A DNA stretch of 57,418 nt, taken from a virus. Shown piece by piece: positions 6,434 through 57,129 of this stretch; the stretch's first letter is position 1; the number at the start of each line of letters is the position of its first letter. The position numbers were made by a program, and so were the translations under genes. A model generated the notes under the pieces. It was given only the letters and a program-made list of their open reading frames with translations. It did not search any database and was not told where the DNA came from. The stretch covers positions 1,609 through 59,026 of IMG/VR virus record IMGVR_UViG_3300030060_003000, one strand, 5' to 3'.

Positions 6434-6463
6434 TTTTTAATCACTTGTTTTTATTGTTTTTTA
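6434..6463 (-). promoter_or_regulatory. Candidate late promoter (TAA-N12-GATTA type)
   Basis: On the minus strand: TAAAAAACA, twelve bases ending AAGT, then GATTAAAAA, four bases before the ATG of the barrel-like gene. The same 9-12-9 layout occurs at 18305, 37564, 50293 and 51618. The sequence is AT-rich, so chance matches are possible. Confidence 0.3.
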
Positions 6464-9400: not shown

Positions 9401-12400
9401 AATAATATCCATTACATATTTAGGACCAAAAAACTGCGTATGATCTTTGTGTATATTATCAAACACACTATCATCATATTTTCCTTGTATAATAGATGTA
9501 ATTACATCAGCAGAAGTATTTGCAGAAGCTCCTATATGTTCTCCTTTAACAACAAGACCTTTATATGTAGCTATGTTTGCAGATCTTTCAATTTCAGCTT
9601 CAGTCATCTTAGGATTCTTCTTTCTTACATCAGCTAACTTTCTATTGTAAACAAATTCGTAATCGTCATACTTACTTAACTTATCTACAAAAGCATCGTA
9701 ATCCGCATCAATCTCAGCTAATTTAAATTTAGTGTTATCAATATAATTACCAAACATAAAGTAATCTATACCACTTAAAGCTCTAGTACCAGATACTATG
9801 TTTGTTTGTATAGCGCCTAGTGTTACTAAATCAATATCTTTTATTTTACCATCTTTATAAGCTTGATTTATTTTATTCCAAAAATATTTTAAATGACCTA
9901 AGTTTGAAATGTTTGCTTTTTCAATAGTGTTTTTAATTTTTTCTAGTGCAGCAAGCTTTTCACTAATAGTAGCATTACTATGTAGTAAAGGTGTATACAT
10001 TTTTCTTAGCTTTGTGTTTTTCTTATTAGCTAATAATATATCTTGTGATTCGTAACCTGTATTGTCGTTAGTTAATTTACCTTTGTTTTTTAACTGATCT
10101 CTATAAAAAGGAGCTTCACCATTATATTTAGCAGAGTTTTTAGCAGCATCTAAAGCTCTGTTAAAATAACCTAATATAGCCATATCACCACCTAAAGCAT
10201 CAATAAATCCTCTATCCATACCATAATCATTAACTAGCATGTTTACCATTTTAGAGTAACGCTGTGCATTTTCGTTTGCTTTTTTATCTTTACCTCTAAG
10301 TTGATGACCTTTGTTTTTAACCATATCTGCTAGTTCAGCAGGAATACCTGGGTGGTTAGTTATTTGTTTTAACAAACCTATGTTATCTCTAGTTACGTTA
10401 CCAGCGTAAAGATCTTCTAATATAAACTCTGCAACGCTACCTAAACCAGGATATTGAGCGTCTAATATAGCAATTTCTATATCAGTATTTTCAGATTCAA
10501 TACCGTTTTTAACAGCATTTCTAACAACTGGCATTACTAAAGACAGCATACCTTCTTGATCGTAATTTTTAAGTATTAAAGTTCTATCTATTTTTCTATC
10601 GCTTTTTAACACGTTACCTCTTTCGAGTTGTTCTACGGCCTGTACAACAGCGTTATCAGCAAGCTCACCATATAACAGCTCTTGTCTTGATTTAAATATA
10701 TCAGCAATATCTGTTTCACCAATTAGCTGTGATCTAAATTGTTCTAAACCTATTTCTTGAGCCATAGCTCTAGTTAGTGTATCAAGACCACCTCTTCTAA
10801 GCTCTGTCATTGTAGTACCATTAAAAAACTTTTTAATAATATCTATAGACGTTATATCAGTCATAGCTTTAGGGTTACGTCTGATTTTTTGTTTACCATC
10901 AGTCATGCCTTTGTATGGACCTTTTTCGCTTGATCTGTAAAAATCTACTTGACCAGGTTTTGTACCTTTAGTTCTACCTTGAAAGTCTGTTGTCCATACC
11001 TTTGTACCATCTTCTTGTATAACTAGCTTCTGTACAGCTTTAGGCAAGTTTTTAGCTAACCAAGTAGTTGGCATGTGTTTTAATATAAGAGCTTTGTTTT
11101 TAGGAGTTTTTAACCACATCTCTACTTCTTGTGGTGTTTTACCCATTATAGCTTCTATAACTTGTTGTATAGGATTTTTTTCTTTGTAAAATTCTTTTTT
11201 AAGAGCTGAAACCAAAGGACTTACTACAGCGTTTTTACCACGTTCTGCGGTTATACTAGGTAAAATACCTCCTAGGTTTAATTTAACATGATCTAAGACA
11301 GTATTTTTATTTTCTTGACTAAGAGCTAATCCATCAGTAAAAGGTGTTTCAGGGGTTAAAACATTTCCGTCGTCATCAAAATCAGCATCAGTGTCATCGT
11401 CTGTTAAAACTCTATTAGCAGTATCTAAATCACTTAAAAATTGATCTTGAACACCAAGTCTTTTTGCTAATGACTGAGCTCTTAAATTAAGTCTATTGCT
11501 TAAAAATTTATCCATGTTTTGTATAGCTGGATCATATTCTCTTATAAGTAAATCAGCCGCATCAGTTAATAACGTTTGTACATAAGTTTTTCTATCTAAA
11601 CCTTTTTTAAGCTCTGCAGGTATTCTATCGTAAAGTCTTTTTGTTATACTTTCTACAATACCGCCTACTTCACTTTCAAAAGCAGATCTTTTATTAGAAT
11701 TTGTAGTAAACTCACCATCAGAATCCATCATAAACATGTCTGAAATCATTGGTGCTATATCTGATTTTTTAGGTTTGTTGTTAGTTCTTTGATCTAATAT
11801 ACCTTGTAAGTTAGATTTTGATTTTAACACACCAAGACCACTAATTGTTTCAATACCTTTTCTTTTTCTAGCTTCTATTCTAGCCCTAGCCATTGGACTT
11901 TCTTTACCTCTTTGAAAGTTTTTTCTAAAATCATTAAAGTAATAAGCCGCGGCTTCAGGTGTATTTATTTCAAAATCTGCGTTTACTAAAGCTTTAGCTC
12001 TTTTACCAAGACCTGGTTTTGCTTTAGCAAGTTTTCTTTGTACAACACCGTTGTTTATAGTTCCACCTTCAGCATCAATAGCATCCTCAACATAAGTACC
12101 AAATTCCATGTGGAATTTTAAGTCTTGATCTAACCAGTTTATGTTTGGATCTACAGCTCCTATATTATCAAACCTTGACATAGCTTGAGCGTATATATGC
12201 GGTGCGTTTTCTTTAATCCACAAAGCTAGATTTTGAGTATAAACAGCCATTTCTTGAGGAGTAAAAGCTTTTGTATCAGCAGCGTGTCTAGTTTCATGCG
12301 CCCAAACTGTACCAACTTCAAAAACAGGGTCTGCTTGGTTTAATAATTTAGTAGCTTGAGATGCATCTGCCGCTATTAATATATTAGGCCCATCTAAATA

Positions 12401-15400
12401 AGCTCCATTAGTTTCTCCACTTCTAACTTCTTCAATTAATCTTTCTAGGTTTAACATTTCTTGTTCGCTAAGCTTTTCTTCTTGAGCTAGTTTACGTATA
12501 TCATACTCAAAACCTTTGTCACTTACTTGAACAACTCTTGGCGCTCCTTTTTGTTTATCAAATATTACTTCAGCATTTATTTGTTGATCTGTGTTTTTAG
12601 CTATTGCGTTACCAGTCATTGCTGCAAATACTCTACCAACTCTTAAGTATGCAGCTTCTTCAGCTTTTTTAGCTCTTCTTTGTCTTTTCTTACCATCTTT
12701 AGTTCTTGCCTGAGCAAATGGAGCTCCATAAACATCGTTTTCTATCATTTCTGTTATACCAGGAGTTTTCTTAGCTCTATTTATTAAGTTTTTATTCATA
12801 TCAGCTTTAATAGCTTCATGAACCATTAATGTTTTTTCTTGGTCAGAAAGATCTTTATAACGAGAGTCTGTCTTTAAAAAGTTTTCATGAACTACTTGAC
12901 CTCTTTGTCCCCATGCTTTCCAGCCTTCTTTATAGTTGATAGAGTTTAATATATTCTTATCAGTATCTAAAGCATCTTTTAATCTAGACTCATAATCTTT
13001 TCTAGCTTCACCTTGTAAACTTTCTGTGTGTTGTTTTACTTTTTGTTCTCTAATTTGATAACTGTCACCCTCTATTACACCGGCTTCAGCATATATACCG
13101 TCTAACACATAACCATTACGCATTAGTTGACTCATTTTTTTACCACCAAGTAAAAGTGTTGCAACTTCATTATTACTTGAAAGTCTAGCTTGTGTGTTTG
13201 CTTCAACAACAAGAGCTTCTCTATAAAGATTTTTTTGTACTTCATCGGTTGATCTAGCTATTTTCATAGCTAACTCTTCTTGTCTATTTTTAGAGTTTTG
13301 ATATTTAGCTCTAGCGTTTTGTATATCTGCGTTAAAAAATCTTTTATGTATAGATGGAACTGCTACACCAGGAATATTCATTGTACCACCTGTAATTATA
13401 GAGCTAAATATAACATCTTCCCAACCTTCGTACTCAAAATCTCTATTTAATATTAAAGCTTCAGACGCGGCATCACCAAAGTGTATAGCAAGTTCTTCAA
13501 CAACTTCACCAGCAGTTCTAGTTCCTATAGCAGCAAGTGAGTTTGCAATATAAGCGGTGTTTCCAAGTGTTATAGCTTTTGTTATATCAGTTGTAGCGCT
13601 ACTACCTATTAAACCTCTAGCTGTTTTACTAGCGTTAGGTATTGTACCTAAAGCAAAGGCAATACCACCTTCAATACAACCACTAGCTAAAGACTGTAAT
13701 ATTATTTGATTATCACTCATATCACCAAGAGTAATAGTTTGTTCTAATGAAGCTAATCTATTGTAATAATCTTCAGCAGACATGTTATCTTTGTTAGCCA
13801 TTAACTCTTCTCTTGCTTCTTTAGCATATTCAGCGGCGTTTTGCTGTATAGTTAAATCAGCTCTTTTACTACCACCAGCGTTAATACCAAAAGCAGTCGC
13901 TGTTAAAGCACTAGCAATATTATAAGCACCTGCAGCACTACCAAGCGCTAAACCAGCAGCTCCTTGAGTTCCTACAGCTAATAAAACGTTTGGCATTTGT
14001 TGAGCTAAAGTTATAAGACCCTGTCTACGTAATTGACCACTTGACCTAGCGGTTTTGTAGTCCATAGCTTGTTCGTAATACTCTTTACCATTTAATCTAC
14101 TAGCATGCATTGTTATAGCATTTTTATTACCAAACAAAGCTGGTATACTATAACCTATATTTTCCCAAGCACTACTCCACTCGTTTAACAATATATTTGA
14201 AAGATCATTTTCTCTAGTTAATATCTTGTTTATACGTTGGTCATCTTGATTATCTTTCATGAAAGTCATGTATTCTTTAGACCATGCTTTTCTTTCTTGT
14301 AGATGTAAATCACTATAAGCAGCCTCGTTAGAAGCTATTTCGTTAAATTTTTCTTGATGATATTTTATTGCAGGATTATCAGGGTTGTTAGAAAAAGCTT
14401 TATATAAAACAGTACCATCTTTTAATCTTTTCATTTCAACACCAACACCATCTTTCTGGGCGTTTAACCTAACTCTTTTTAATTGCTCAATTACTTTTTT
14501 CTGATTGTTTACAAACTTATCATCAATTTTAGTTGCAGCTTGTTTTCTTATTTCACCTTGTTTATACAAATCAAACTTTCTACTTTCGGCCCACCAATTA
14601 GTTTCTACATCACGCTCACCTTCTCTGTTTTGTTTGTTATATAATACGTCCCAAGATTTTTTTAAGTTAAAATCATGTTGTTCGTCTATTGAACCAGCAG
14701 CTTGTTTATCTCTTTGTAATTTAGCTTGATCAAATATAATTTTATCTTCATCAGATAACTGCTCTCGTATTTCATCACTAAACACAGTTTCATATCTTGT
14801 TTTTTCCCAACCATCAACAGTGACTGGCATCACAACACTTCTATTACCAACTTGTGTAAGTTTTTCTTCTTTTATCTCAGTGTTAAGGTGTTTTTCAAGT
14901 ATAGTATAACCTTCTTCAGACATACCGTCTGTTACAATTTTTAAGTCTGTTTTTGATCGTGGGGATTTTGCGTAGTCTAGGATAGCGTCATCTCTTGTCG
15001 CTATATTTGGATTGTTTATTTGTATTTCTTTATATAAATTAGCTTCACGCTTAGCTATGTTAGCTTTAGCGTTATCCATTTTATTTTTTTCTTCGTCTGT
15101 AAAAGTGTCTTTTTTACTAAGAAAGTTTTTTATTTCAGCTGGATTACCCTCAAATATAACCTCACCATCTCTTGTTACAGAGTAACCTTGTACATTACCA
15201 TCGGTTGCGGTGGCGCTAGGTTGTATTGAAACATTTACACCGTTTTTACTATAAAAATTATTAGCACCATTTAAATCGTCTTGTTCAAAAGAAGTAAATA
15301 AACCACCAGCTCTATCAGTATCACCTTTTACACCAGTTAATAAATTATAACCATATTCTCTTGTAGCTATTTCCTCTTGATTAGCCACCTTACCGTCCAT

Positions 15401-16021
15401 CAATTTTTTAACTTGCATCCATTTTTGATAGTTTAACATCTCAGGACCAGTTAAACCTAATTCTTTTTGAAGTTCTGTGTCAACGTTTTTGTTAGTAAAA
15501 AAAAGTTCTGGATTATCAAACATACCAGGATCTAAATCTATTTCTATTTCTTTACCATCTATGCTAAATACTATTTCACCAGACTGTGCTTGCATGTCAA
15601 CTTTTCCATCTAAAAATATATCTGGATAAGTTTCTTTAAACCAATTAACAAGTTCGCCTGAATTTTTATCTAAGAAAGGCTTAAAGTTACCTTCATCAAA
15701 AGCTGTCTTTACTAAATCACTATCAACACCTTCTCCAGCTATCATTGCTGATTTATCTAAAGCTTTAGCATTGTTAACTCTTTCTAACTTTGCCTTTTCC
15801 GCTGCATCTCTTTCTTTTTGAATCTGCTCGTTATACTTTTGGTCAGCCGCAATTTGTTTTTTTATTAAGGCATTTTGATCGGCAACCCAAGCGTTGTTCT
15901 TGTCAACCACGTATTTATCAAGAGTCTGACGTATGGTAGCGCCAGGAACTCTGTTTTTATACATGTGCTCATATATTTGCTGCATTTCAGCTTTATGCTG
16001 ATCGTTTAATTCAAATTTCAT
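6461..16021 (-). CDS. Giant polyvalent virion protein with zincin, HAD and zinc-knuckle motifs
   Basis: A 3186-residue single ORF. Visible parts: an N-terminal coiled-coil-rich region; small-residue hydrophobic stretches near residues 660-720 and 765-790 that could insert in a membrane; a zincin motif WAHETRHAAD (H1242, E1243, H1246); a HAD-type hydrolase with DFDDT (D2291, D2293), ILTARP (~2368-2373) and FADD (~2423-2426); a C-terminal region (~2870-3130, RPDMISSQQASPLGRLILAF) of a type I associate with large polyvalent proteins; and a final Cys3His zinc module (C3159, C3171, C3182, H3185). Multi-enzyme proteins of this kind are thought to be ejected with phage DNA. Its place after the nozzle and internal protein genes fits that. 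Overall class likely; each activity inferred. Confidence 0.75.
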   Translation of the reverse strand: MKFELNDQHKAEMQQIYEHMYKNRVPGATIRQTLDKYVVDKNNAWVADQNALIKKQIAADQKYNEQIQKERDAAEKAKLERVNNAKALDKSAMIAGEGVDSDLVKTAFDEGNFKPFLDKNSGELVNWFKETYPDIFLDGKVDMQAQSGEIVFSIDGKEIEIDLDPGMFDNPELFFTNKNVDTELQKELGLTGPEMLNYQKWMQVKKLMDGKVANQEEIATREYGYNLLTGVKGDTDRAGGLFTSFEQDDLNGANNFYSKNGVNVSIQPSATATDGNVQGYSVTRDGEVIFEGNPAEIKNFLSKKDTFTDEEKNKMDNAKANIAKREANLYKEIQINNPNIATRDDAILDYAKSPRSKTDLKIVTDGMSEEGYTILEKHLNTEIKEEKLTQVGNRSVVMPVTVDGWEKTRYETVFSDEIREQLSDEDKIIFDQAKLQRDKQAAGSIDEQHDFNLKKSWDVLYNKQNREGERDVETNWWAESRKFDLYKQGEIRKQAATKIDDKFVNNQKKVIEQLKRVRLNAQKDGVGVEMKRLKDGTVLYKAFSNNPDNPAIKYHQEKFNEIASNEAAYSDLHLQERKAWSKEYMTFMKDNQDDQRINKILTRENDLSNILLNEWSSAWENIGYSIPALFGNKNAITMHASRLNGKEYYEQAMDYKTARSSGQLRRQGLITLAQQMPNVLLAVGTQGAAGLALGSAAGAYNIASALTATAFGINAGGSKRADLTIQQNAAEYAKEAREELMANKDNMSAEDYYNRLASLEQTITLGDMSDNQIILQSLASGCIEGGIAFALGTIPNASKTARGLIGSSATTDITKAITLGNTAYIANSLAAIGTRTAGEVVEELAIHFGDAASEALILNRDFEYEGWEDVIFSSIITGGTMNIPGVAVPSIHKRFFNADIQNARAKYQNSKNRQEELAMKIARSTDEVQKNLYREALVVEANTQARLSSNNEVATLLLGGKKMSQLMRNGYVLDGIYAEAGVIEGDSYQIREQKVKQHTESLQGEARKDYESRLKDALDTDKNILNSINYKEGWKAWGQRGQVVHENFLKTDSRYKDLSDQEKTLMVHEAIKADMNKNLINRAKKTPGITEMIENDVYGAPFAQARTKDGKKRQRRAKKAEEAAYLRVGRVFAAMTGNAIAKNTDQQINAEVIFDKQKGAPRVVQVSDKGFEYDIRKLAQEEKLSEQEMLNLERLIEEVRSGETNGAYLDGPNILIAADASQATKLLNQADPVFEVGTVWAHETRHAADTKAFTPQEMAVYTQNLALWIKENAPHIYAQAMSRFDNIGAVDPNINWLDQDLKFHMEFGTYVEDAIDAEGGTINNGVVQRKLAKAKPGLGKRAKALVNADFEINTPEAAAYYFNDFRKNFQRGKESPMARARIEARKRKGIETISGLGVLKSKSNLQGILDQRTNNKPKKSDIAPMISDMFMMDSDGEFTTNSNKRSAFESEVGGIVESITKRLYDRIPAELKKGLDRKTYVQTLLTDAADLLIREYDPAIQNMDKFLSNRLNLRAQSLAKRLGVQDQFLSDLDTANRVLTDDDTDADFDDDGNVLTPETPFTDGLALSQENKNTVLDHVKLNLGGILPSITAERGKNAVVSPLVSALKKEFYKEKNPIQQVIEAIMGKTPQEVEMWLKTPKNKALILKHMPTTWLAKNLPKAVQKLVIQEDGTKVWTTDFQGRTKGTKPGQVDFYRSSEKGPYKGMTDGKQKIRRNPKAMTDITSIDIIKKFFNGTTMTELRRGGLDTLTRAMAQEIGLEQFRSQLIGETDIADIFKSRQELLYGELADNAVVQAVEQLERGNVLKSDRKIDRTLILKNYDQEGMLSLVMPVVRNAVKNGIESENTDIEIAILDAQYPGLGSVAEFILEDLYAGNVTRDNIGLLKQITNHPGIPAELADMVKNKGHQLRGKDKKANENAQRYSKMVNMLVNDYGMDRGFIDALGGDMAILGYFNRALDAAKNSAKYNGEAPFYRDQLKNKGKLTNDNTGYESQDILLANKKNTKLRKMYTPLLHSNATISEKLAALEKIKNTIEKANISNLGHLKYFWNKINQAYKDGKIKDIDLVTLGAIQTNIVSGTRALSGIDYFMFGNYIDNTKFKLAEIDADYDAFVDKLSKYDDYEFVYNRKLADVRKKNPKMTEAEIERSANIATYKGLVVKGEHIGASANTSADVITSIIQGKYDDSVFDNIHKDHTQFFGPKYVMDIIDELGQTSRLGHARITQGLKAFPNILEKIYHISGQKADTRIADLTKINDLFKTRDEVAKETKLGKLNNDARTLKSANRKGISVLDFDDTLATSKSLVEFTRPDGTTGTLTPAQYAAEYESLADLGYEFDFSQFNKVIDGKIAPLFKKALKLQEKFGTNDIFILTARPQEAQKAIHKFLKDNGLDIPINNITGLGNSTAEAKALWVADKAAEGYNDFYFADDALKNVQAVKNILDQFDVKSKVRQATLRSKSEASTLNEMIARNLGVAEYKEYSEAKAKLIGKKKGRWKFFIPPSAEDFKGLMYPLLGKGAKGDADMQFFKDVLFDPYSRGVEQMNRMAQGLSVDYKALNKLMPKAKRKLNKKIPGTQFTYDQGIRVWMWTKAGVEVPGISKTDIKQINKAINADQEMIDYANGILRITKNPSYLTPSETWLTSTVAMDLYMMTQGDSRKEMLGEFIENRQKLFGDWKGNRLDGPLMNKLEAALGTNWRDAMEDILWRMENGTNRNFGTNKLTNQFTNWVNNSVGAIMFFNGRSAVLQTLSTVNFINWSDNNPAKAAAAFANQKQFWKDFAYLFNSDMLKQRRAGNQRSVSENEIAQMAERNGVSGVLNKLLEFGFLPTQIADSFAIASGGATFYRNRIKTYMKQGMSKAEAEAKAFTDFQKITEETQQSSRPDMISSQQASPLGRLILAFQNTPMQYARLTKKAILDLKNGRGDAKTNISKIMYYGAVQNIIFGSLQQALFKYMFDDEDEEENKKKAEEKDRAVLRLANGVVDSFLRGIGVAGAIVSTLKNMVMKFIEEDAKGFRMDTAAIILEMLQISPPVGSKVRKVNTGLRTYKFKRREIDHMDTFDIDNPIWSPITQTISALTNIPTDRLYKKIMNLREAANSDNSTWQRIAMLLGWNTWDVGVRNQEVINARGEIEEIRQKKKEEEKIEKQKEKERLRKEREAREVQCSAFTRKGKGPRCKNRTENKSGRCYAHQ

Positions 16022-50322: not shown

Positions 50323-51132
50323 CTTCTTTTTACGTTGAGAATAAGGCCTCCAGTTACCAACACCACCTTTAATTCCATGTACAGAATTTTTTGCGCCATC
50401 TTTCATTGCTTTTCTCTTTGTAGTTGGTGGAGCAGTAGGATCGTTTTTGTATTGACCCATTTCATACCTTGATTTTGCAAGAGTTTTGCTTTGATCGTCA
50501 CTACCTTTAGAAGCTCTTGGTCCAAAACCTCCTTTTTTCAAAAGATCAACTTCAGATTTACCAGTTGTTTTCATTTTATTTGGAGATTTTACTTTTTTAC
50601 CAGTAACATTTGATGTAAAGTCTGTATAACCGTGATAACCTTGTCTTTTAGCGTAAGGTCTAGTACCTTTTACAGTATCTTTATAAGGTGGTTTCATAAA
50701 ACCTTTACCTTTAGAAGGTTTCTTTTTCTTATTCTTTTTATCTTCAGCTAATTCAGTTTCGTAATCACTTACTTGTCCAGTATGTAAAGTACCATCAGAC
50801 GCTTTGTAATACTTTTTACCGTTTTTGTAAATAATTTTTCCATTATTTTTAACAGGAGACTTAGGTTTTGTGTGACCATAACCCTTTTTCTTTAGCTCAA
50901 GATGCTTTTCGTATGTTTTAGCCATAACTTCATCACCATCTTTGTACATCATGTGTGGTTTAAAGTCTTTTATTTCATCTTTTTTAACTTTAAATGGTGA
51001 ATCACTAGATTTTTCCTCGTTTTGACTGTGTAAACCCATATTAAATGGTCTTCTATTGTCAAAACCGAGTTTCTGTGGCTTATAACCACAACCTTCTACT
51101 TTATATAATGGATCGTTTGGTGTTCTTATCAT
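50320..51132 (-). CDS. Large basic Lys-rich protein with SPxK segments
   Basis: A 270-residue protein. N-terminus MIRTPNDPLYKVEGCGYKPQ; then SSDSPFKVKKDEIK, KPKSPVKNNGKIIYKNGKKY, KVKSPNKMKTTGKSEVDLLK. The repeated SPxK pieces recall the SPLK part of the tagged proteins, without the MAFK start. More than a quarter of residues are Lys, with Gly and polar residues, so much of it is likely disordered. A DNA-condensing or virion internal role is an inference. It is the second gene of the late operon. Confidence 0.6.
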   Translation of the reverse strand: MIRTPNDPLYKVEGCGYKPQKLGFDNRRPFNMGLHSQNEEKSSDSPFKVKKDEIKDFKPHMMYKDGDEVMAKTYEKHLELKKKGYGHTKPKSPVKNNGKIIYKNGKKYYKASDGTLHTGQVSDYETELAEDKKNKKKKPSKGKGFMKPPYKDTVKGTRPYAKRQGYHGYTDFTSNVTGKKVKSPNKMKTTGKSEVDLLKKGGFGPRASKGSDDQSKTLAKSRYEMGQYKNDPTAPPTTKRKAMKDGAKNSVHGIKGGVGNWRPYSQRKKK

Positions 51133-51584
51133 TATCCTCTTGTTTTATTTAGTTTACCCGTAACTAGATTACGAGTTTTTCTTACTTTTCTACCTTTTTT
51201 TACTTTTGGTAGCTTAATATTCTTTATTTTTTTAAGTATCTTCTTTTTAGTCGATGTGTTCTTTGCTCTATCGCGAGCATCTGCAATAGCCTGCGTCTTC
51301 TTGTCCAACGTAACTTCAGGAGATATATAACCTGGAGCCTTAACATTTTTTAATTTTCTTGGAATACGCTTGCTTTTCATCCGTTTAGTCTTTTTTGGTT
51401 TTAAAGGCTTAGGATTATAGTTAGCATCTTCTTGATTTGTATTTCTATATCTAAAAGTATATGTTGATTTATCAGGGTTTTTAACAGTAAAAGATCTAAC
51501 CCCGTCACCTAAATCTTTTATAGGTTTTACGCGGGCCATTCCATCTCCGTGTTTGTTAACTTTTACTAGTTTATCTTTAGGCAT
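51132..51584 (-). CDS. Very basic protein, first gene of the late operon
   Basis: A 150-residue protein, extremely rich in Lys and Arg: a small beta domain (MARVKPIKDLGDGVRSFTVK ... STYTFRYRNTNQED) is followed by a basic tail (KPKKTKRMKSKRIPRKLKNV ... KKKILKKIKNIKLPKVKKGR). It resembles DNA- or RNA-binding proteins. It is the first gene read from the divergent promoter region. It could be an internal DNA-binding virion protein or a late regulator. Not recognised by family. Its stop shares one base with the next gene start. Confidence 0.65.
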   Translation of the reverse strand: MPKDKLVKVNKHGDGMARVKPIKDLGDGVRSFTVKNPDKSTYTFRYRNTNQEDANYNPKPLKPKKTKRMKSKRIPRKLKNVKAPGYISPEVTLDKKTQAIADARDRAKNTSTKKKILKKIKNIKLPKVKKGRKVRKTRNLVTGKLNKTRG

Positions 51585-51652: not shown

Positions 51653-51700
51653 TGTGACACTAGCTAGTTACTATATCCCTATTAATAGGCTTATGTCACA
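51653..51700. promoter_or_regulatory. Nested palindromes in the divergent region
   Basis: TGTGACA (51653-51659) and TGTCACA (51694-51700) are an inverted repeat enclosing two palindromes: CTAGCTAG (51660-51667) and CCTATTAATAGG (51678-51689). A nine-A run follows on the plus strand, which is not the T-tract a plus-strand terminator needs. Symmetry suits an operator for dimeric regulators or a replication element. Confidence 0.5.
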
Positions 51701-51800: not shown

Positions 51801-51811
51801 ATCTGTATGCT

Positions 51812-51845
51812 TTTATTATCATTTTTTACTCGTTTTTACTTTGTA
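51812..51845 (-). promoter_or_regulatory. Early-type promoter motif, minus-strand copy
   Basis: Minus strand: TACAAAG, TAAAAACGA, nine bases, GATAATAAA. Same order and spacing as the seven plus-strand copies, with one mismatch in the middle box. It points toward the late operon and lies 12 bases from the plus-strand copy at 51857, so the two form a divergent pair. Confidence 0.7.
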
Positions 51846-51856
51846 TTAATAACTTT

Positions 51857-51890
51857 TACATAATAAATACGACTATTATTAGATAATATA
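51857..51890 (+). promoter_or_regulatory. Early promoter motif copy 1
   Basis: TACATAA, then TAAATACGA (51864-51872), spacer of nine, GATAATATA (51882-51890). It is the first plus-strand copy. A tiny 21-codon ORF starts at 51898. Confidence 0.75.
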
Positions 51891-51897
51891 TATGTAA

Positions 51898-51963
51898 ATG
51901 AAAACGAAACAAATAAATAAATTAAATTTGCAAACAGTGAAGTCGCGGACAGTACATGTGTAA
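51898..51963 (+). CDS. Possible 21-residue leader peptide
   Basis: ATG at 51898, seven bases after promoter copy 1, opens a 21-codon frame (MKTKQINKLNLQTVKSRTVH, then V) with stop TAA at 51961-51963. It is basic and has no known family. It could be a leader peptide or chance. A second promoter copy lies between it and the next gene. Confidence 0.25.
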   Translation: MKTKQINKLNLQTVKSRTVHV

Positions 51964-51997
51964 GTAAATTATTAAGTAAACAAAGTATGTACTTTTA

Positions 51998-52031
51998 TAC
52001 AATGTAAATACGACTCATAAAAGATAATAAA
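51998..52031 (+). promoter_or_regulatory. Early promoter motif copy 2
   Basis: TACAATG, TAAATACGA (52005-52013), nine-base spacer, GATAATAAA (52023-52031), 37 bases before the ATG at 52069. Confidence 0.78.
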
Positions 52032-52068
52032 TATAGATAAAATAAATAATAATTAAATAGTAAAAAAA

Positions 52069-52290
52069 ATGGAATTAAATTCAAAAAGATTTGTGATAAG
52101 AAAATCACTAGTAGGTAAAAATGCAGTAATCACAGTAAACTTCAAAAATGGTAAAACTGCAAAGTATAATCACGACAAAGTGTATGAAGTAATGAAAGAT
52201 AAATTAGCAGAAATGCCTTGCTTCATAAAGTATAAAAGTTATACTGCAAGTAACAATGTTCCAGTAGTAGCAAGAGAAATCTGTGAGTAA
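52069..52290 (+). CDS. Small early protein, function unknown
   Basis: A 73-residue basic protein: MELNSKRFVIRKSLVGKNAV, ITVNFKNGKTAKYNHDKVYE, MPCFIKYKSYTASNNVPVVA. The pattern of alternating strands suggests a small beta fold. It is the first clear gene behind tandem early promoters, so it is likely expressed at once after infection. I do not recognise it. The A-rich leader AGTAAAAAAAATGG shows no Shine-Dalgarno. Confidence 0.65.
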   Translation: MELNSKRFVIRKSLVGKNAVITVNFKNGKTAKYNHDKVYEVMKDKLAEMPCFIKYKSYTASNNVPVVAREICE

Positions 52291-52349
52291 TATTGTAAAG
52301 TCGAGTTAGTTCCACTTGTTCCCTCGTATAATCAAATATGAATGAGTAA

Positions 52350-52390
52350 TGTAGTTATGGTAGGCAGGTGAGTTCGATTCTCACACTACA
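52350..52390 (+). ncRNA. tRNA-like T-arm/acceptor minihelix
   Basis: TGTAGT (52350-52355), twelve bases, GTGAG (52368-52372), T-loop TTCGATT, CTCAC (52380-52384), ACTACA (52385-52390). This is a perfect 5-bp T arm with a canonical loop, stacked directly on a 6-bp acceptor-like stem, as in tRNA. The 12 bases between (TATGGTAGGCAG) keep D-loop-like GG but there is no anticodon arm. It lies between two early genes in a 115-base gap. It may be a tRNA remnant or a tRNA-mimicking element. Confidence 0.6.
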
Positions 52391-52405
52391 ACTAAAATAT
52401 ATAAT

Positions 52406-52645
52406 ATGAGTAGAGAAGAATTAAAGCGTATGTGGTTTAGTATGCCTCACCCTACGCCAAAGAAAGAGGTGAGAGTAATTAAAGTAACAACACTTGGTGC
52501 AAATCATTATGAATGTAAGAAAATACGAGATGATGAGTTTGGTTACCACACTTATAGTAGTAACTGGAGAACACTCAGTGAAGCAATAGCATTTGCTCGT
52601 AAACTACAAAATGATGCACCTGAATTTAGTATAGTGTTACACTAA
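52406..52645 (+). CDS. Small early protein, function unknown
   Basis: A 79-residue protein: MSREELKRMWFSMPHPTPKK, EVRVIKVTTLGANHYECKKI, DDEFGYHTYSSNWRTLSEAI, FARKLQNDAP, ending IVLH. It looks like a short beta sheet plus a helix (LSEAIAFARKL). It follows the tRNA-like element in the early operon. No family recognised. Confidence 0.62.
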   Translation: MSREELKRMWFSMPHPTPKKEVRVIKVTTLGANHYECKKIRDDEFGYHTYSSNWRTLSEAIAFARKLQNDAPEFSIVLH

Positions 52646-52646
52646 A

Positions 52647-52680
52647 TGCAATATAAATACGATAATAGTAAGATAATATA
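52647..52680 (+). promoter_or_regulatory. Early promoter motif copy 3
   Basis: TGCAATA, TAAATACGA (52654-52662), nine-base spacer, GATAATATA (52672-52680), 17 bases before the ATG at 52698. It starts right after the stop of the previous gene. Confidence 0.8.
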
Positions 52681-52697
52681 TATAAATAATAAATAAT

Positions 52698-52826
52698 ATG
52701 ATAATAAGAAAAGTAGCAGGATTATGGATAGTACAGCGTCAGCACTCACAACAAATATTGTTTTCACATAAAAAACAAATGGAGTGTTATGAGTGGATAT
52801 TTAGTAAATACGTACACTATGCATAA
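52698..52826 (+). CDS. Small early protein (42 residues)
   Basis: A 42-residue ORF, MIIRKVAGLWIVQRQHSQQI, then LFSHKKQMECYEWIFSKYVH and YA. It follows promoter copy 3, and its stop overlaps the chosen start of the next gene (ATGCATAA). Tight packing and the overlap support it as real. It is basic with aromatic residues near the C-terminus; function unknown. Confidence 0.5.
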   Translation: MIIRKVAGLWIVQRQHSQQILFSHKKQMECYEWIFSKYVHYA

Positions 52827-53076
52827 ACTAAAAGATAATATAGCAGAGATAATAGTTGTAATTGTTTTTACAATAGCACTATTAAGTTCTTGCTCGTTTA
52901 ATCACGAAGCAGAAGCAATGCCACCTGTTCATAAACTATATAATGAATTAAGTGTACACGAGAAACAAGAATATGACTCGTATAATGCAGAAGAACGAGC
53001 GAATGTAAACAAGAATGAGTACATTTATCAACTAAGACAAGCATTAGCTTGCGAGAATTGTGATGAAATTGATTAA
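52819..53076 (+). CDS. Small early lipoprotein
   Basis: An 85-residue protein starting at 52819, where the ATG overlaps the previous stop. MHKLKDNIAEIIVVIVFTIA then LLSSC-SFNHEAEAMPP gives a signal peptide with lipobox LSSC, so the mature protein would be a lipid-anchored ~50-residue acidic peptide (NELSVHEKQEYDSYNAEERA). An upstream ATG at 52789 would add ten polar residues that weaken the signal. Early surface lipoproteins of phages can block superinfection; this is inference. Confidence 0.65.
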   Translation: MHKLKDNIAEIIVVIVFTIALLSSCSFNHEAEAMPPVHKLYNELSVHEKQEYDSYNAEERANVNKNEYIYQLRQALACENCDEID

Positions 53077-53089
53077 TAAATAATAAAAT

Positions 53090-53398
53090 ATGAAGAAAAT
53101 AACATGGAGTGTAGCAGCACTGTTAATTGCAGGTACGACACTATTCGGTCAAACGAGTGACGATAATAAAGAGAATTATGAGAAGGCGATGAAAGAATTT
53201 AAAGCGCTTGAATATCAAATAGAAGATATTGTCTCCGCCATACGTATGGATATGTACTATGGTCACCTAGATAGAGACAGAGGTAATTATTATATTAACG
53301 AAGTAATGATTATCAAGCATAAACAAATGCAAGTAATGTCAGATTTATGGCGAAAAAGAAATGTAACATTAAGTGAATACCAATCAAAATTAAATTAA
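53090..53398 (+). CDS. Small exported protein, function unknown
   Basis: A 102-residue protein with signal peptide MKKITWSVAALLIAGTTLFG-QT, followed by a helical, charged body (ENYEKAMKEFKALEYQIEDI, KHKQMQVMSDLWRKRNVTLS). It should reside in the periplasm. Together with the preceding lipoprotein this makes two envelope-directed early genes side by side, which suggests an envelope-related task early in infection. The family is unknown. Confidence 0.65.
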   Translation: MKKITWSVAALLIAGTTLFGQTSDDNKENYEKAMKEFKALEYQIEDIVSAIRMDMYYGHLDRDRGNYYINEVMIIKHKQMQVMSDLWRKRNVTLSEYQSKLN

Positions 53399-53399
53399 T

Positions 53400-53654
53400 A
53401 TGAAGTCAAAAAGAGATTATATACTAACACCATGTGACTATGGTTACAAAGTTGAAGCGTGGGATAGATACGGTAAATACGTGTGTGTATACGAGAAAAC
53501 CGTAGGTGACGCTAGTAAGTTTATAGTAAACTGGTGGGATAAAGCAGATGAGAATAAAAAAGCAGATGAAATTATGCATAAAGCGATGCTTGAATGTATG
53601 AAATTAGACAAAGAGGCAGGAATAACGAGTGAATATAGAGATTGTCTTGACTAA
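53400..53654 (+). CDS. Small early protein, function unknown
   Basis: An 84-residue protein: MKSKRDYILTPCDYGYKVEA, WDRYGKYVCVYEKTVGDASK, FIVNWWDKADENKKADEIMH, then a Cys/Asp-rich end. A beta-sheet start and helical finish. It begins two bases after the previous stop (TAATATG). No domain recognised. It is followed directly by promoter copy 4. Confidence 0.65.
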   Translation: MKSKRDYILTPCDYGYKVEAWDRYGKYVCVYEKTVGDASKFIVNWWDKADENKKADEIMHKAMLECMKLDKEAGITSEYRDCLD

Positions 53655-53656
53655 TT

Positions 53657-53690
53657 TACAATATAAATACGATAAAAGCAGGATAATATA
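53657..53690 (+). promoter_or_regulatory. Early promoter motif copy 4
   Basis: TACAATA, TAAATACGA (53664-53672), nine-base spacer, GATAATATA (53682-53690), only three bases before the ATG at 53694. A transcript starting downstream of the motif would thus be almost leaderless. Confidence 0.8.
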
Positions 53691-53693
53691 TAT

Positions 53694-53903
53694 ATGAAAT
53701 GCAAATGTAAAAAAATAATACCAATACAACGAGTTAATCTTGGCTTCAAAGTATGTGTCGACTGTTCTACTACCGAACGTTATGGCTGTGCTCCAATCAC
53801 ATTCCATAAAACCGGCAATTCCATACAGATTATGTCAAGCAGTGACGCTGCTAAAATAGCTAAGATGACTCGTCGTAGAGGTTATGGAACAATGTTAGGT
53901 TAA
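53694..53903 (+). CDS. Small Cys-rich zinc-ribbon-like protein
   Basis: A 69-residue protein: MKCKCKKIIPIQRVNLGFKV, CVDCSTTERYGCAPITFHKT and a basic C-terminus (KMTRRRGYGTMLG). Two CxC/CxxC knuckles (C3, C5, C21, C24) plus C32 could bind zinc in a ribbon. Small zinc-ribbon proteins are frequent among phage early genes, with possible binding to RNA polymerase or nucleic acid. Function inferred only. Confidence 0.65.
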   Translation: MKCKCKKIIPIQRVNLGFKVCVDCSTTERYGCAPITFHKTGNSIQIMSSSDAAKIAKMTRRRGYGTMLG

Positions 53904-53904
53904 T

Positions 53905-54012
53905 ATGAGAGAAATAGATAATATGTTAAATCAGTGGATAATTAATAGTATTATAAGAAATAAATTAAGAAAACTGATAATAAAACAAATAAATAAGTAT
54001 AAAAATGAGTAA
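53905..54012 (+). CDS. Small basic helical protein (35 residues)
   Basis: A 35-residue ORF (MREIDNMLNQWIINSIIRNK, then LRKLIIKQINKYKNE) that starts at the TAATATG junction of the preceding gene. It is a single amphipathic, Lys/Ile/Asn-rich helix. Its stop overlaps the next gene start. It is plausible because of packing, but short. Confidence 0.4.
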   Translation: MREIDNMLNQWIINSIIRNKLRKLIIKQINKYKNE

Positions 54013-54196
54013 AAGTACAATGAATTATATAACAGTATTAGATTTTGAAACAGGTAATGTACATATGTATAATATAATGGGTAAAGGTTGGAATCCTGAC
54101 CATGAATCATGTGAAGCATACTTATCAGGCAAAGGTCACAACTTAGCTAATATACAGTGGATGGTGCATGAAGAAAACACTATAATTACAAACTAA
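54005..54196 (+). CDS. Small early protein, function unknown
   Basis: A 63-residue protein: MSKSTMNYITVLDFETGNVH, MYNIMGKGWNPDHESCEAYL, SGKGHNLANIQWMVHEENTI and TN. VLDFETG near the start recalls the DxE of exonucleases, but the rest is far too short for such a fold. It looks like a small alpha/beta domain. The stop codon is part of promoter copy 5. Confidence 0.65.
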   Translation: MSKSTMNYITVLDFETGNVHMYNIMGKGWNPDHESCEAYLSGKGHNLANIQWMVHEENTIITN

Positions 54197-54220
54197 ATAC
54201 GAATCAAGTAAGATAATATA
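54187..54220 (+). promoter_or_regulatory. Early promoter motif copy 5
   Basis: TACAAAC, TAAATACGA (54194-54202), spacer ATCAAGTAA, GATAATATA (54212-54220). The first TAA of the middle box is also the stop codon of the preceding gene. ATG at 54240. Confidence 0.8.
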
Positions 54221-54239
54221 TACAAATAAATAAATAAAT

Positions 54240-54425
54240 ATGCAGAAAATTAAGTTTTTAAGAAATGATTACATACAACTAGGCAACTTAGTATACAAGC
54301 CGTATACTATATGTGAATTACCTGCCAACTTCGGTTGTATAGAATTTCAGGAAAAGCCTGGAATTAGCGAATGGTTTAACTACAGAGGATATACTTATCT
54401 CTTTGACAAAGTAGCGAAGTCATGA
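54240..54425 (+). CDS. Small early protein, function unknown
   Basis: A 61-residue protein: MQKIKFLRNDYIQLGNLVYK, PYTICELPANFGCIEFQEKP, GISEWFNYRGYTYLFDKVAK and S. A small all-beta fold is likely. The stop TGA overlaps the next ATG (ATGA). No homologue known to me. Confidence 0.62.
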   Translation: MQKIKFLRNDYIQLGNLVYKPYTICELPANFGCIEFQEKPGISEWFNYRGYTYLFDKVAKS

Positions 54426-54526
54426 GTCCATGGCAATTAGTAGGCGAACTCGGTATATATACTGAAGAGCAAATAGAAGAAATGACGTGGGCAGAATGCG
54501 TCGAGATATTAACAACAGAATATTAA
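54422..54526 (+). CDS. Small acidic protein (34 residues)
   Basis: A 34-residue acidic ORF (MSPWQLVGELGIYTEEQIEE, MTWAECVEILTTEY) that overlaps the preceding stop (ATGA) and ends three bases before the next gene. The pattern TEEQIEEMTWAECVEIL is helical and looks like a short protein-binding domain. The close packing on both sides makes it likely to be translated. Confidence 0.5.
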   Translation: MSPWQLVGELGIYTEEQIEEMTWAECVEILTTEY

Positions 54527-54529
54527 AAT

Positions 54530-55120
54530 ATGAAGACAATATACAAAGGCGACTCACGCTATGAGAAAATATATGAGCAGATGCAACTACTTGGTATTCA
54601 AGATATTAGCACAGAAAGACAGGTAAAAAATGGTACAATAGCATGGCGATTACCAATCAAAAACAACTGGCCAAGACAAAACGCTAGTTTCATTGAAGTA
54701 GCTAGTTTTGCTACAGGTTACGTGCGTAATCAAAATAGTGGTTACAGTAACTACCAACTCAACAAAAGATGTATGGGTGAGCCAGAATACTTTAAGAGTT
54801 ACAAGTGGGTTGATGGCGAGCAAGTATGGGACGGTAAATACAGAAAGTTTGAGACTCGTAAGTGTGTACTAATACCAATAGAAATCGATAGACTCGAGTA
54901 TATGATGAAGTATGTAGTTAAAAACTATTTCATCAAGAACGCTAATCAAGTGCCAAACGGCGAGTTCTATCCAAAGTTTATGTATGAAACTGCTAAAGAG
55001 AACGCAGATTTTCATGAGAAAAGATCTGATGAGTACATGAATAAGTTTGCTAATGTAGCGCCTGACGGTACAAAAGAAGTAACATTGATAATAGATGGCC
55101 ATAAATATAAAGTAATATGA
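54530..55120 (+). CDS. Early protein, function unknown
   Basis: A 196-residue protein: N-terminal helix (YEKIYEQMQLLGIQDISTER), then a mixed region with ATGYVRNQNSGYSNYQLNKR and KYRKFETRKCVLIPIEIDRL, a helix (MMKYVVKNYFIKNANQVPNG) and a C-terminal EVTLIIDGHKYKVI strand. No signal peptide or membrane segment. It is the largest complete early gene in the window. I do not recognise a family. It ends in an ATGA overlap with a 49-residue ORF. Confidence 0.7.
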   Translation: MKTIYKGDSRYEKIYEQMQLLGIQDISTERQVKNGTIAWRLPIKNNWPRQNASFIEVASFATGYVRNQNSGYSNYQLNKRCMGEPEYFKSYKWVDGEQVWDGKYRKFETRKCVLIPIEIDRLEYMMKYVVKNYFIKNANQVPNGEFYPKFMYETAKENADFHEKRSDEYMNKFANVAPDGTKEVTLIIDGHKYKVI

Positions 55121-55266
55121 GTAAAAAAAGAAAACTAAATAGCAAGAATCCAAAGTACTGGGACAAAAGCCTAGTAACTGAAAAGAAAATACTCAAGAAA
55201 GAATTAATAAGAGATATTAAAGGCGTGAAAGTACACGCTGTGTGGTATGACCACAGTAAAGGGTAG
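55117..55266 (+). CDS. Small basic protein (49 residues)
   Basis: A 49-residue ORF, MSKKRKLNSKNPKYWDKSLV, then TEKKILKKELIRDIKGVKVH and AVWYDHSKG, starting in an ATGA overlap with the preceding gene. The Lys/Arg-rich start could bind nucleic acid. Its stop is immediately followed by the structured non-coding stretch. Real translation is likely from the coupling arrangement. Confidence 0.55.
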   Translation: MSKKRKLNSKNPKYWDKSLVTEKKILKKELIRDIKGVKVHAVWYDHSKG

Positions 55267-55470
55267 GGTGGTAGCGCGTGAGACGTGTACACTATAATAA
55301 GTTTAAGCATGAAGTAATGTTGGAACGATTGAAAGAGTATCGGATGTCTCATTGAAGGTTTAAACTTATAGTGATCTTACTCACTTGGCAGAACGGCAGG
55401 ATAAAGCAAAAATGGTGAATTGGCTCGACTAGTGATAGCAACGAAACCATAGAACCACACCTGCCCGCCT
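55267..55470 (+). ncRNA. Structured non-coding stretch, possible small RNA
   Basis: About 200 bases without an ORF but with several complementary segments: CACTATAATAAGTTTAA (55290-55306) against TTAAACTTATAGTG (55360-55373), one three-base bulge; AGTGA-TCTTAC-TCACT just after; GGCAGG (55395-55400) against CCTGCC (55460-55465), enclosing ATGGT/ACCAT (55412-55416, 55446-55450) and TTGGCT/TAGCAA. The last set spans 71 bases. A D-arm-like GGTGGTAGCGCG opens the region. No T-loop is found, so it is not a normal tRNA. RNA identity unknown. Confidence 0.5.
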
Positions 55471-55472
55471 TT

Positions 55473-55506
55473 TACAATATAAATACGAATAAAGTAGGAT
55501 AATATA
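55473..55506 (+). promoter_or_regulatory. Early promoter motif copy 6
   Basis: TACAATA, TAAATACGA (55480-55488), spacer ATAAAGTAG, GATAATATA (55498-55506), 15 bases before the ATG at 55522, just downstream of the structured RNA. Confidence 0.8.
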
Positions 55507-55521
55507 ATAAAATTAAATAAT

Positions 55522-55917
55522 ATGAACAAACAAGATTTAGAGCTAAAAATTGCTGGCTTAGAAAAAGCAATACAAGAGCATAAAGACTTCAGTGCTACTT
55601 ATGAAAACGATTTGAAGTCAACTAAAAAACAATTAGACGACTACAATAAACCAGAGTTAACACCGAAGCAACTAGATGATATTCAAGAAGCTATTGAAGA
55701 TGCTGTAGGTACTTATAACTTTGATAATGTAGACGATTATGATGTAGAATTTTGCTTAGACTATGATGGTAGAGTGTCGTTAGATACTATTGGCTTAAAT
55801 GACACATACGATTTAGTAGAAAAAATAGTAAAAAATGTACATAATCTATTCAAAGAAGCTGATTGCCCTGAAGAATTAGATACAACAGAACCAGATAACC
55901 ATAAACCAGTAGAATAA
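55522..55917 (+). CDS. Acidic coiled-coil early protein
   Basis: A 131-residue protein with an N-terminal coiled coil (MNKQDLELKIAGLEKAIQEH, NDLKSTKKQLDDYNKPELTP) and an acidic C-terminal domain (EAIEDAVGTYNFDNVDDYDV, VEKIVKNVHNLFKEADCPEE). Very low pI. A DNA-mimic or protein-binding role is possible from the charge alone. Start follows promoter copy 6. Unknown family. Confidence 0.68.
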   Translation: MNKQDLELKIAGLEKAIQEHKDFSATYENDLKSTKKQLDDYNKPELTPKQLDDIQEAIEDAVGTYNFDNVDDYDVEFCLDYDGRVSLDTIGLNDTYDLVEKIVKNVHNLFKEADCPEELDTTEPDNHKPVE

Positions 55918-55918
55918 T

Positions 55919-56197
55919 ATGAAATTAACGGATAAAGAAGTAAAAAAATACATGATGTGGAGAACTGATGACGAGTTTATACATTGTCCTGACGCTATTG
56001 CTGCAGCTTGTAACGATATGTATGAAGAGTATAAACACAATGAGTTTCTTAAAATAACTGCAAAAGATTTTATGAAACTATTGTTCTTTAATGACCCAAT
56101 AAAAGGTATGAATACACACAACTATGGCTTTCACACAGCTCATGGCAGACATATTATTAACACATTACAAAATAAATATTATGAGTACAAAAGCTAA
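55919..56197 (+). CDS. Small early protein, function unknown
   Basis: A 92-residue helical protein: MKLTDKEVKKYMMWRTDDEF, IHCPDAIAAACNDMYEEYKH, NEFLKITAKDFMKLLFFNDP. It starts two bases after the previous stop (TAATATG). The next gene starts inside its last codons. Function unknown. Confidence 0.65.
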   Translation: MKLTDKEVKKYMMWRTDDEFIHCPDAIAAACNDMYEEYKHNEFLKITAKDFMKLLFFNDPIKGMNTHNYGFHTAHGRHIINTLQNKYYEYKS

Positions 56198-56441
56198 ATT
56201 ACCTAAATGGTTTAAAGGTCAGTTATATGACAAAGGAGACACTGTAAGAAACCCTTTCAGTGGAGAAGAATATGAATTAAATAATGTAGAACTTTCTATG
56301 TATGACTTTATAATTGGTAGTCAAATGGTGTTTGAAATGGCACCACAGACTGTTACTGAGCAAAAAGTTAAAGACTTTCAAAAAGGTCTTGCTTGGTTTA
56401 GTAAAAACAATATTAAAGCATATATGGTATTATTAGATTAA
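56181..56441 (+). CDS. Small early protein, function unknown
   Basis: I start at the ATG at 56181 (86 residues: MSTKAKLPKWFKGQLYDKGD, TVRNPFSGEEYELNNVELSM, YDFIIGSQMVFEMAPQTVTE, then QKVKDFQKGLAWFSK). The frame is open to 56124, but the upstream part lies wholly inside the previous gene. KG(D)TVRNPFSGEEYELNNVE suggests a beta hairpin seen in small phage proteins. Function unknown. Confidence 0.62.
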   Translation: MSTKAKLPKWFKGQLYDKGDTVRNPFSGEEYELNNVELSMYDFIIGSQMVFEMAPQTVTEQKVKDFQKGLAWFSKNNIKAYMVLLD

Positions 56442-56444
56442 ATT

Positions 56445-56840
56445 ATGGCAACAAGATCAAGTATAAGATTCGCTACGCGCGAAGAAGGCGTATCATTTAA
56501 TATAATGCCAGAGAAGATAAATGCTAAATTCTATGCACATTGGGATGGTTATCCATCACACAGAGGTGTAGAGATAGCTGAGGCATTACTTCATGGTAAC
56601 AAAATCGATGGTTGGGAAATAGAAAGTTTAGATTCTAAACACACTGACCTTGAGTATATATATTATGTGTGGCAAGCACACGGTAAAACTACATGGATTA
56701 GTATATTTGAAAGAAAAGACTACAGTATGGAGTCTTGGCATCTAGATTTTAATCAAGCAGATGCTTTTGAATGTATATTTGTAGGCGAACCTACTAAATT
56801 AATAGATAAATACAAACCAAATACGGATGACGAAGGATAA
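56445..56840 (+). CDS. Conserved phage protein (MATRS..HWDGYPSH family)
   Basis: A 131-residue protein of a widespread phage family recognised by MATRSSIRFATREEG at the start and YAHWDGYPSHRGVEIAEAL in the middle; then TDLEYIYYVWQAHGKTTWIS and a C-terminal IFVGEPTKLIDKY. The family is common in early regions of many phages, without a known function. The conserved His/Asp/Tyr of HWDGYPSH could be a binding site. Promoter copy 7 lies inside its last codons. Confidence 0.78.
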   Translation: MATRSSIRFATREEGVSFNIMPEKINAKFYAHWDGYPSHRGVEIAEALLHGNKIDGWEIESLDSKHTDLEYIYYVWQAHGKTTWISIFERKDYSMESWHLDFNQADAFECIFVGEPTKLIDKYKPNTDDEG

Positions 56841-56844
56841 TAAA
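56811..56844 (+). promoter_or_regulatory. Early promoter motif copy 7 (within a gene end)
   Basis: TACAAAC, CAAATACGG (56818-56826, two mismatches), nine-base spacer, GATAATAAA (56836-56844). It overlaps the 3' end of the preceding gene, yet keeps order and spacing exactly. Confidence 0.6.
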
Positions 56845-56847
56845 TAT

Positions 56848-57129
56848 ATGACAGATGAACAAATAGATCAACTATGTATAAAAATAGTCACTAGAATGAC
56901 TAAATTAAAAGCAATGGATGATTGGTTTCACCACGTAAATAAATCTAATGCAGCTTGGAAAGTATATGAAGACTTAGATATTGACGAAGAAGCAGCTGCA
57001 TACGGTGAATTAGCTAAACTAATGACACTGATGGACATTTTTAAAAATGACGAAGCATATGAAAAATGTGCTATAATAAAAAATAGAATAACACAAGTAA
57101 AAAAAATAATAAAAAAGTATAATAAATGA
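56848..57129 (+). CDS. Small helical early protein, function unknown
   Basis: A 93-residue, mostly helical protein: MTDEQIDQLCIKIVTRMTKL, KAMDDWFHHVNKSNAAWKVY, EDLDIDEEAAAYGELAKLMT, KNRITQVKKIIKKYNK. I prefer the ATG at 56848, three bases after promoter copy 7 and past the previous stop; an ATG at 56827 inside the earlier gene is the alternative. Its stop overlaps the ligase start (ATGA). Function unknown. Confidence 0.65.
   Translation: MTDEQIDQLCIKIVTRMTKLKAMDDWFHHVNKSNAAWKVYEDLDIDEEAAAYGELAKLMTLMDIFKNDEAYEKCAIIKNRITQVKKIIKKYNK

Follow-up and report, generated by a model that had tools for sequence, protein, structure and literature searches.

A repeated promoter-like motif and its candidate phage sigma factor in a lineage of uncultured phages presumed to infect Bacteroidota

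Near the right end of an uncultured phage sequence, a three-part motif, TACAANNTAAATACGA-N9-GATAATAWA, recurs with constant spacing. Is it a promoter, and if so, which polymerase would read it? The sequence is a stretch of 57,418 nucleotides (here, the window), comprising bases 1609-59026 of the 59,026-base IMG/VR virus record IMGVR_UViG_3300030060_003000. The original prediction, made from the letters of this DNA, was a phage-specific promoter, recognized either by an RNA polymerase of the phage's own or by that of the host together with a phage factor. Our analysis favors the second option, since relatives of the phage encode a sigma70-family factor, whereas a phage RNA polymerase was not detected in them. 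In our best explanation, which we regard as probable, the motif is the promoter of a transcription class of the phage's own, read by host core RNA polymerase together with the phage sigma.

Distribution and start register of the motif

Scanning the window for TACAANNTAAATACGA-N9-GATAATAWA, with up to three mismatches allowed, gave exactly eight matches, and 100 dinucleotide shuffles gave none (mean, 0.00). The seven plus-strand copies and the one minus-strand copy that had been predicted were thus all recovered, with identical spacing. The letters of the three blocks vary slightly, with no mismatch in four copies, one in three, and two in the copy at 56811. The record's remaining 1,608 bases, outside the window, contained no additional copy when scanned.

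An exact scan of IMG/VR for TAAATACGA-N9-GATAATA retrieved at least 118 stretches, many of them with several copies on the same strand, and the consensus turned out to be longer than the motif first noted, namely, TTTACAAAC-TAAATACGA-N8-RGATAATATAAATRT. Sites were then gathered separately for each phage, with GATAAT-like words and the internal repetition of the upstream block as the only anchors, which yielded 491 distinct sites from 67 related IMG/VR phages. Only 12% of these sites lay inside open reading frames (ORFs), compared to 74% of other GATAAT words, so the motif is not spread evenly through genes, a distribution that would have spoken against a promoter. Around the sigma gene described below, 352 copies were on the strand of that gene and 6 on the opposite one, and a reversed-pattern control gave none; the strand of the copies was almost always that of the early genes. 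In five relatives scanned in detail, most copies were located in the early region, although a few stood among the replication genes. Control contigs sought by means of TerL were mostly close fragments and were not used as a control. The motif is almost certainly a phage promoter, and an uncultured lineage of phages presumed to infect Bacteroidota carries hundreds of copies. A search of the open-access literature, subscription papers being outside its scope, retrieved no paper describing the promoters or the sigma factor of this lineage.

The sites share a clear start signature. The base 12 nucleotides (nt) after the G of GATAAT was a purine in 96% of the 491 sites and a G in 51%, compared to 3 to 13% G at the positions +2 to +21 that follow it, and the base preceding it was a pyrimidine in 76%. 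The ATG codons of ORFs peaked exactly at this base (53 of the 491 sites), with a broad second peak 18 to 24 nt further downstream and a median distance to the ATG of 22 nt. Because of this purine/pyrimidine signature and the ATG peak, GATAAT is read as positions -12 to -7 and the purine as +1. The predicted start thus lies 6 nt beyond GATAAT, within the 6 to 8 nt expected, and GATAAT would occupy the -10 position of a sigma70-type promoter. The upstream box, TTACAAACTAAATACGA, covers about -38 to -22, is separated from GATAAT by a gap of 9 nt, and is unusually long; the canonical box does not provide a normal -35 element 16 to 18 nt upstream of the -10 element, a spacing that only one variant resembles (CGGACTT-16-GATAAT). 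The claim that the motif fits no sigma70 -35/-10 distance therefore held for the upstream box but not for GATAAT, and a sigma70-type start fits better than was first thought. A -35 element is not required in all phage sigma systems, the promoters of phiEco32 gp36 consisting of a single element (PMC8948821). The distribution, the strand, the purine at +1 and the predicted leaderless starts are the behavior of a promoter class.

Within the window, the copies are concentrated to the right of a divergent junction, among short rightward genes, and one is turned toward the leftward structural genes. This minus-strand copy (51812..51845) has its GATAAT from 51820 and a predicted start at 51808, 224 nt ahead of the first leftward ORF (51132-51584) of the structural/late block. 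On the plus strand, the copy at 51857..51890 (GATAAT from 51882) would start at 51894 (G), that at 51998..52031 at 52035 (A), 34 nt ahead of ORF 52069-52290, and that at 52647..52680 at 52684 (A), 105 nt ahead of the ORF beginning at 52789. The copy at 54187..54220 overlaps the 3' end of ORF 54005-54196, with a putative start at 54224, 16 nt ahead of the ORF at 54240, and the copy at 55473..55506 would start at 55510, 12 nt ahead of the ORF at 55522. For the copy at 53657..53690, the predicted start, 53694, coincides with the first base of the ATG that opens ORF 53694-53903. The copy at 56811..56844 overlaps the 3' end of ORF 56445-56840, and its predicted start, 56848, falls on the first base of an ATG that is in frame with the next ORF, listed as 56827-57129; this gene therefore probably starts at the ATG at 56848 rather than at 56827, as a misassigned start. 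The copies at 53657 and 56811 would consequently yield leaderless mRNAs. As had been predicted, copies lie in gaps before genes, but two of them, not one, overlap a gene end (54187 and 56811).

A sigma70-family gene and its helix-turn-helix neighbor

By large terminase and portal, the phage closest to the window is ctfjg026 (Manatee Spring, USA; 63 and 50%, respectively), with lower values for Flavobacterium elemo phages (44 and 42%) and, for the portal, for Cellulophaga phi38:1/Calle (about 37%). The record encodes GroEL and a protein with crAss-type muzzle domains, and the terminase, portal and GroEL genes are common to the window and nine whole or near-whole relatives. These relationships point to a Bacteroidota host. 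The motif was not found in the nearest named phages, ctfjg026, elemoA/F, phi38:1, Calle_1, phi19:3, phi13:2 and Gundel_1.

The relatives encode a protein of about 251 residues that matches Pfam Sigma70_r2 and Sigma70_r4, a PHROG sigma factor (1e-27) and, by PDB profile, SigA (5e-10) and FliA (2e-9). Its gene lies downstream of that of a 206-residue helix-turn-helix (HTH) protein; the HTH gene was present with the sigma gene in 80 of 80 loci, and the two overlapped in most. A search for a phage sigma-like gene had been proposed with the original prediction, and it succeeded in the relatives: among 48 virus records chosen by the motif alone, 37 carried the sigma gene, including every one of the 25 that are at least 60 kb long. 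The gene was not found in two motif-less relatives (0/2), and six further cultured outgroups had neither motif nor sigma. The sigma and HTH genes are both present in three of the four nearest relatives of the window; the sequence of the fourth is interrupted at precisely this place. The window record itself begins inside a ribonucleotide reductase gene and ends inside a DNA ligase gene, which leaves a gap of about 10 kb at the interval in which relatives carry the HTH and sigma genes.

The ordinary motif was present in 65 of the 80 sigma loci (reversed-pattern control, 0). Several long loci lacking it carry variant boxes, GGTTGACACGA-N9, TACACGGACTT-N16 and CACAAATTAAATTCGA-N8, with GATAAT unchanged, and in several of these variant-box loci the helix of sigma region 4.2 reads YVRxSE(I/L)K in place of YVRxSQLK. 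In alignments, the Q of the latter corresponds to that of RQIEAKA in SigA and to that of RVSQLKAKAL in FliA; we take it to be the counterpart of Q589 of sigma70, a -35 contact. In 61 nonredundant phages, partial Mantel tests associated the distance between boxes with the distance between region 4.2 helices (r = 0.29; P = 0.004 given region 2 and P = 0.002 given the HTH protein). The association persisted when the discovery loci that had prompted the test were left out (P = 0.004), and box distance showed no correlation with region 2, region 3 or the N terminus of sigma in the same sample. The box label requires four changes on the tree. The covariation thus supports, without proving, sigma as the reader, and leaves room for the HTH protein.

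A second repeated element accompanies the HTH gene. The sigma loci contain 59 copies of the inverted repeat TGTGACA-N32..35-TGTCACA, compared to none with spacings of 20 to 31 or 36 to 49. In several relatives, the repeat and the HTH start codon overlap, which makes the repeat a candidate HTH operator. The window has one such repeat, TGTGACA-N34-TGTCACA (51653..51700), in the leader of the leftward transcript.

Candidate readers of the motif

In the mechanism that we propose, host core RNA polymerase would carry the phage sigma70-family factor of about 251 residues instead of a host sigma. Region 2 of this factor would recognize and melt the -10 element, GATAAT(ATA), region 4, perhaps helped by the neighboring 206-residue HTH protein, would read the box TTACAAACTAAATACGA at -38 to -22, and RNA synthesis would begin 12 nt past the G of GATAAT. 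Seven copies in the window would drive the small rightward early/middle genes, and one would serve the leftward structural block that it faces. Sequence analysis establishes that the motif is distributed as a promoter would be, that it has a start register, that it goes with the sigma and HTH genes across the lineage and that no phage RNA polymerase is detectable; we infer the sigma as reader, the region that would read the box and the timing.

Several observations weigh against this explanation. The window record contains no sigma gene; it breaks at the interval holding HTH and sigma genes in relatives, so the window phage's own sigma is inferred from them, not seen. The co-occurrence of motif and sigma is confounded with ancestry, one lineage having motif, sigma and HTH protein and its sister groups none of them. 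In the covariation data, position 229 of sigma (Q/E/N) was the best of 349 columns, yet its P value by the maximum statistic was 0.052, and an HTH column was nearly as good; some E-type sigmas are paired with the ordinary box, and T occupies position 229 in two of the nearest relatives, which also have the ordinary box. The box is also longer than the usual footprint of region 4. Finally, the sigma operon is itself downstream of motif promoters, the nearest upstream copy lying 0.4 to 4.7 kb before the HTH-sigma pair, and host-type promoters (TTTG/TAnnTTTG) were not enriched in these phage genomes. The first sigma might come from weak host transcription that sets the loop going, or it might be carried in the virion; alternatively, other genes than these may be the very first to be expressed.

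The length of the box, which exceeds a normal -35 element, and the constant presence of an HTH gene beside the sigma gene, overlapping it in most loci, would also suit a two-factor arrangement as at T4 middle promoters, in which the HTH protein binds the box in the manner of MotA and a phage or host sigma reads only GATAAT. HTH columns 145 and 132 show an association with the box that is nearly as strong as that of sigma position 229. However, the whole-protein HTH distance explained box distance poorly once controlled (P = 0.06), while the sigma helix kept its association given the HTH protein; the inverted repeat at the HTH start codon in several phages is a more natural operator for this protein; and its predicted fold had no significant match in a structure search of the PDB. 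One viral relative was found. We consider this arrangement rather unlikely. A host alternative sigma whose promoter class the phages exploit would account for consensus-quality copies found before chromosomal-type genes in four Bacteroidota metagenome-assembled genomes, some with two or more copies. Yet there were only 12 matches in 84,980 bacterial genomes, about half of them on phage-like contigs; in a set of 399 genomes from a single host family, copies with at most one mismatch were confined to the two genomes known beforehand, and matches with two mismatches hardly exceeded the reversed control. Being this rare in the large set and at background in the smaller one, the motif is not explained by a general host sigma, nor is it among the sigma motifs described for Flavobacterium psychrophilum (PMC9723704), which makes a host class highly improbable.

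Two readings invoke a phage polymerase. A packaged polymerase such as that described for phage phi14:2 (reviewed in PMC10136315) would solve the start-up problem, and these phages combine crAss-type muzzle domains with an N4-like layout and possess a giant cargo gene; the motif would then be an early promoter of a virion RNA polymerase of the crAss-like or N4-like type, concealed in the 3186-residue protein encoded at 6461-16021. This we judge very improbable, as RNA_pol_Rpb1_2 (PF00623) was matched in 0 of 12 records with 14 of 14 controls positive, DxDGD was absent from all ORFs of at least 90 residues in four records (G000, G007, G011 and G043), and the giant protein had no blastp match beyond chance to N4 virion RNA polymerase or T7 RNA polymerase. 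In the other reading, a single-subunit phage polymerase would use the motif as a T7-type promoter and initiate at the G of GATAATA (+1): TAAATACGA-N9-G and the T7 sequence TAATACGA-CTCACTATA-G share a register, and the copy at 51998 even carries TACGACTCA. This reading appears exceedingly improbable. The -1/+1 signature and the ATG peak lie 12 nt beyond that G, conserved midsized proteins contain no convincing polymerase motif B, the giant protein ends in a HAD-like phosphatase and another conserved domain rather than in a polymerase, and RNA_pol (PF00940) had no match in 46 virus records, a weak result since the search controls were silent. With no polymerase found and the start signature 12 nt downstream, the T7 register was rejected.

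Other conserved features and known systems

The giant cargo protein (6461-16021, minus strand) is variable over its N-terminal two-thirds and strongly conserved at its C terminus (residues about 2246 to 3118), which comprises a HAD-type domain (DFDDTL; PHROG polynucleotide kinase match, 2e-5) followed by a helical-looking domain; it had no blastp match in motif-less relatives. The protein was discarded as a virion RNA polymerase, its conserved C terminus opening with the HAD-type DFDDTL and the likeness to motif B (R...K...YYG) sitting in the helical tail. Two proteins of about 570 to 620 residues, suspected as polymerases, were identified as ribonucleotide reductases. These enzymes differ at the same locus among relatives, with a large and small subunit pair in one of the groups compared (G001, G007 and G011 against G043, G012 and G039) and a shorter single-chain match with a B12-type insertion domain in the other. 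G453, an isolate-derived record that appeared to carry the motif, was dismissed as probably a chance match, having no genes in common with G043.

Two noncoding segments of the window are conserved. The segment at 52297-52405 (plus strand) has homologues in 12 other loci and shows a tRNA-like acceptor stem and T-arm (GTGAG-TTCGATT-CTCAC), an extra stem in its 5' part, and compensatory double changes in 6 of 17 predicted pairs. ARAGORN and Rfam did not recognize it; it is possibly a phage tRNA-like or tmRNA-like RNA. A second ORF-free stretch (55261-55472, plus strand) includes two short blocks of about 25 and 38 nt that are about 93 to 100% conserved, with counterparts in eight loci, and had no Rfam match.

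The chromosome-type copies of the motif, seen in five pairs of loci, stand before a TerB-domain gene beside parA/parB-like genes and small secreted proteins, and are possibly captured phage promoters. The joint proposal that recognition helix and promoter box changed together several times across the lineage, forming a natural series for the code between region 4 and promoter, and that a few Bacteroidota chromosomes captured the phage promoter before genes of their own, switched on only in infected cells, we hold to be decidedly unlikely.

Outside the work on the virion polymerase of crAss-like phages, the control of transcription in Bacteroidota phages is hardly known. A large uncultured lineage appears to control it differently, by pairing a sigma factor of its own with a distinctive promoter. 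From the motif, a strand-specific map of predicted transcription starts, some of them putatively leaderless, would be available for many uncultured phage genomes, and the related changes in promoter box and sigma helix make a code of sigma-promoter recognition testable by swapping.

How does this putative system compare with known ones? T4 middle promoters combine a MotA box at -30, AsiA and a sigma70 -10 element, and resemble the promoters described here in having a normal -10 hexamer together with a nonstandard conserved box around -30. T4, however, uses host sigma70 remodeled by AsiA, whereas a complete phage sigma is encoded here, and no relative of MotA or AsiA was identified in these phages. 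Phage sigma factors that switch host polymerase to phage promoters include SPO1 gp28 and gp33-34 and T4 gp55; T4 gp55 reads only the -10 element TATAAATA, and SPO1 middle promoters have different boxes. The likeness to these systems would be the switching of host polymerase by a phage sigma, whereas boxes differ and hosts are unrelated. With T7 class promoters, the likeness of TAAATACGA-N9-G to TAATACGA-N9-G seems chance-like, the start register here being different and no single-subunit RNA polymerase having been detected. The Bacteroidota sigma-A promoter has TTTG at -33 and TAnnTTTG at -7 (PMC9723704) and is probably active in the same host. As had been predicted, the motif does not fit it: both elements differ, and the consensus has GATAATATAAATRT where TAnnTTTG, not present in the motif, would stand.

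Closer in outline are phiEco32 gp36 and gp47 of phage 7-11, phage sigmas that direct host polymerase to phage-only promoters (PMC8948821). The promoters of 7-11 are bipartite (GTAAtg-16-aCTA), and promoter sequence varies with the divergence of the sigmas, which serve middle and late genes, host sigma70 serving the early genes (PMC8948821). As appears to be the case here, a podovirus encodes a sigma70-family factor that redirects host core RNA polymerase to several phage-only promoters per genome. In contrast, the copies described here cluster in the presumed early region, their box is much longer, and both host and phage lineage are unrelated. We thus regard phiEco32 and 7-11 as the nearest described parallels, which would share the outline of this system but differ in box, host, lineage and, apparently, the class of genes served.

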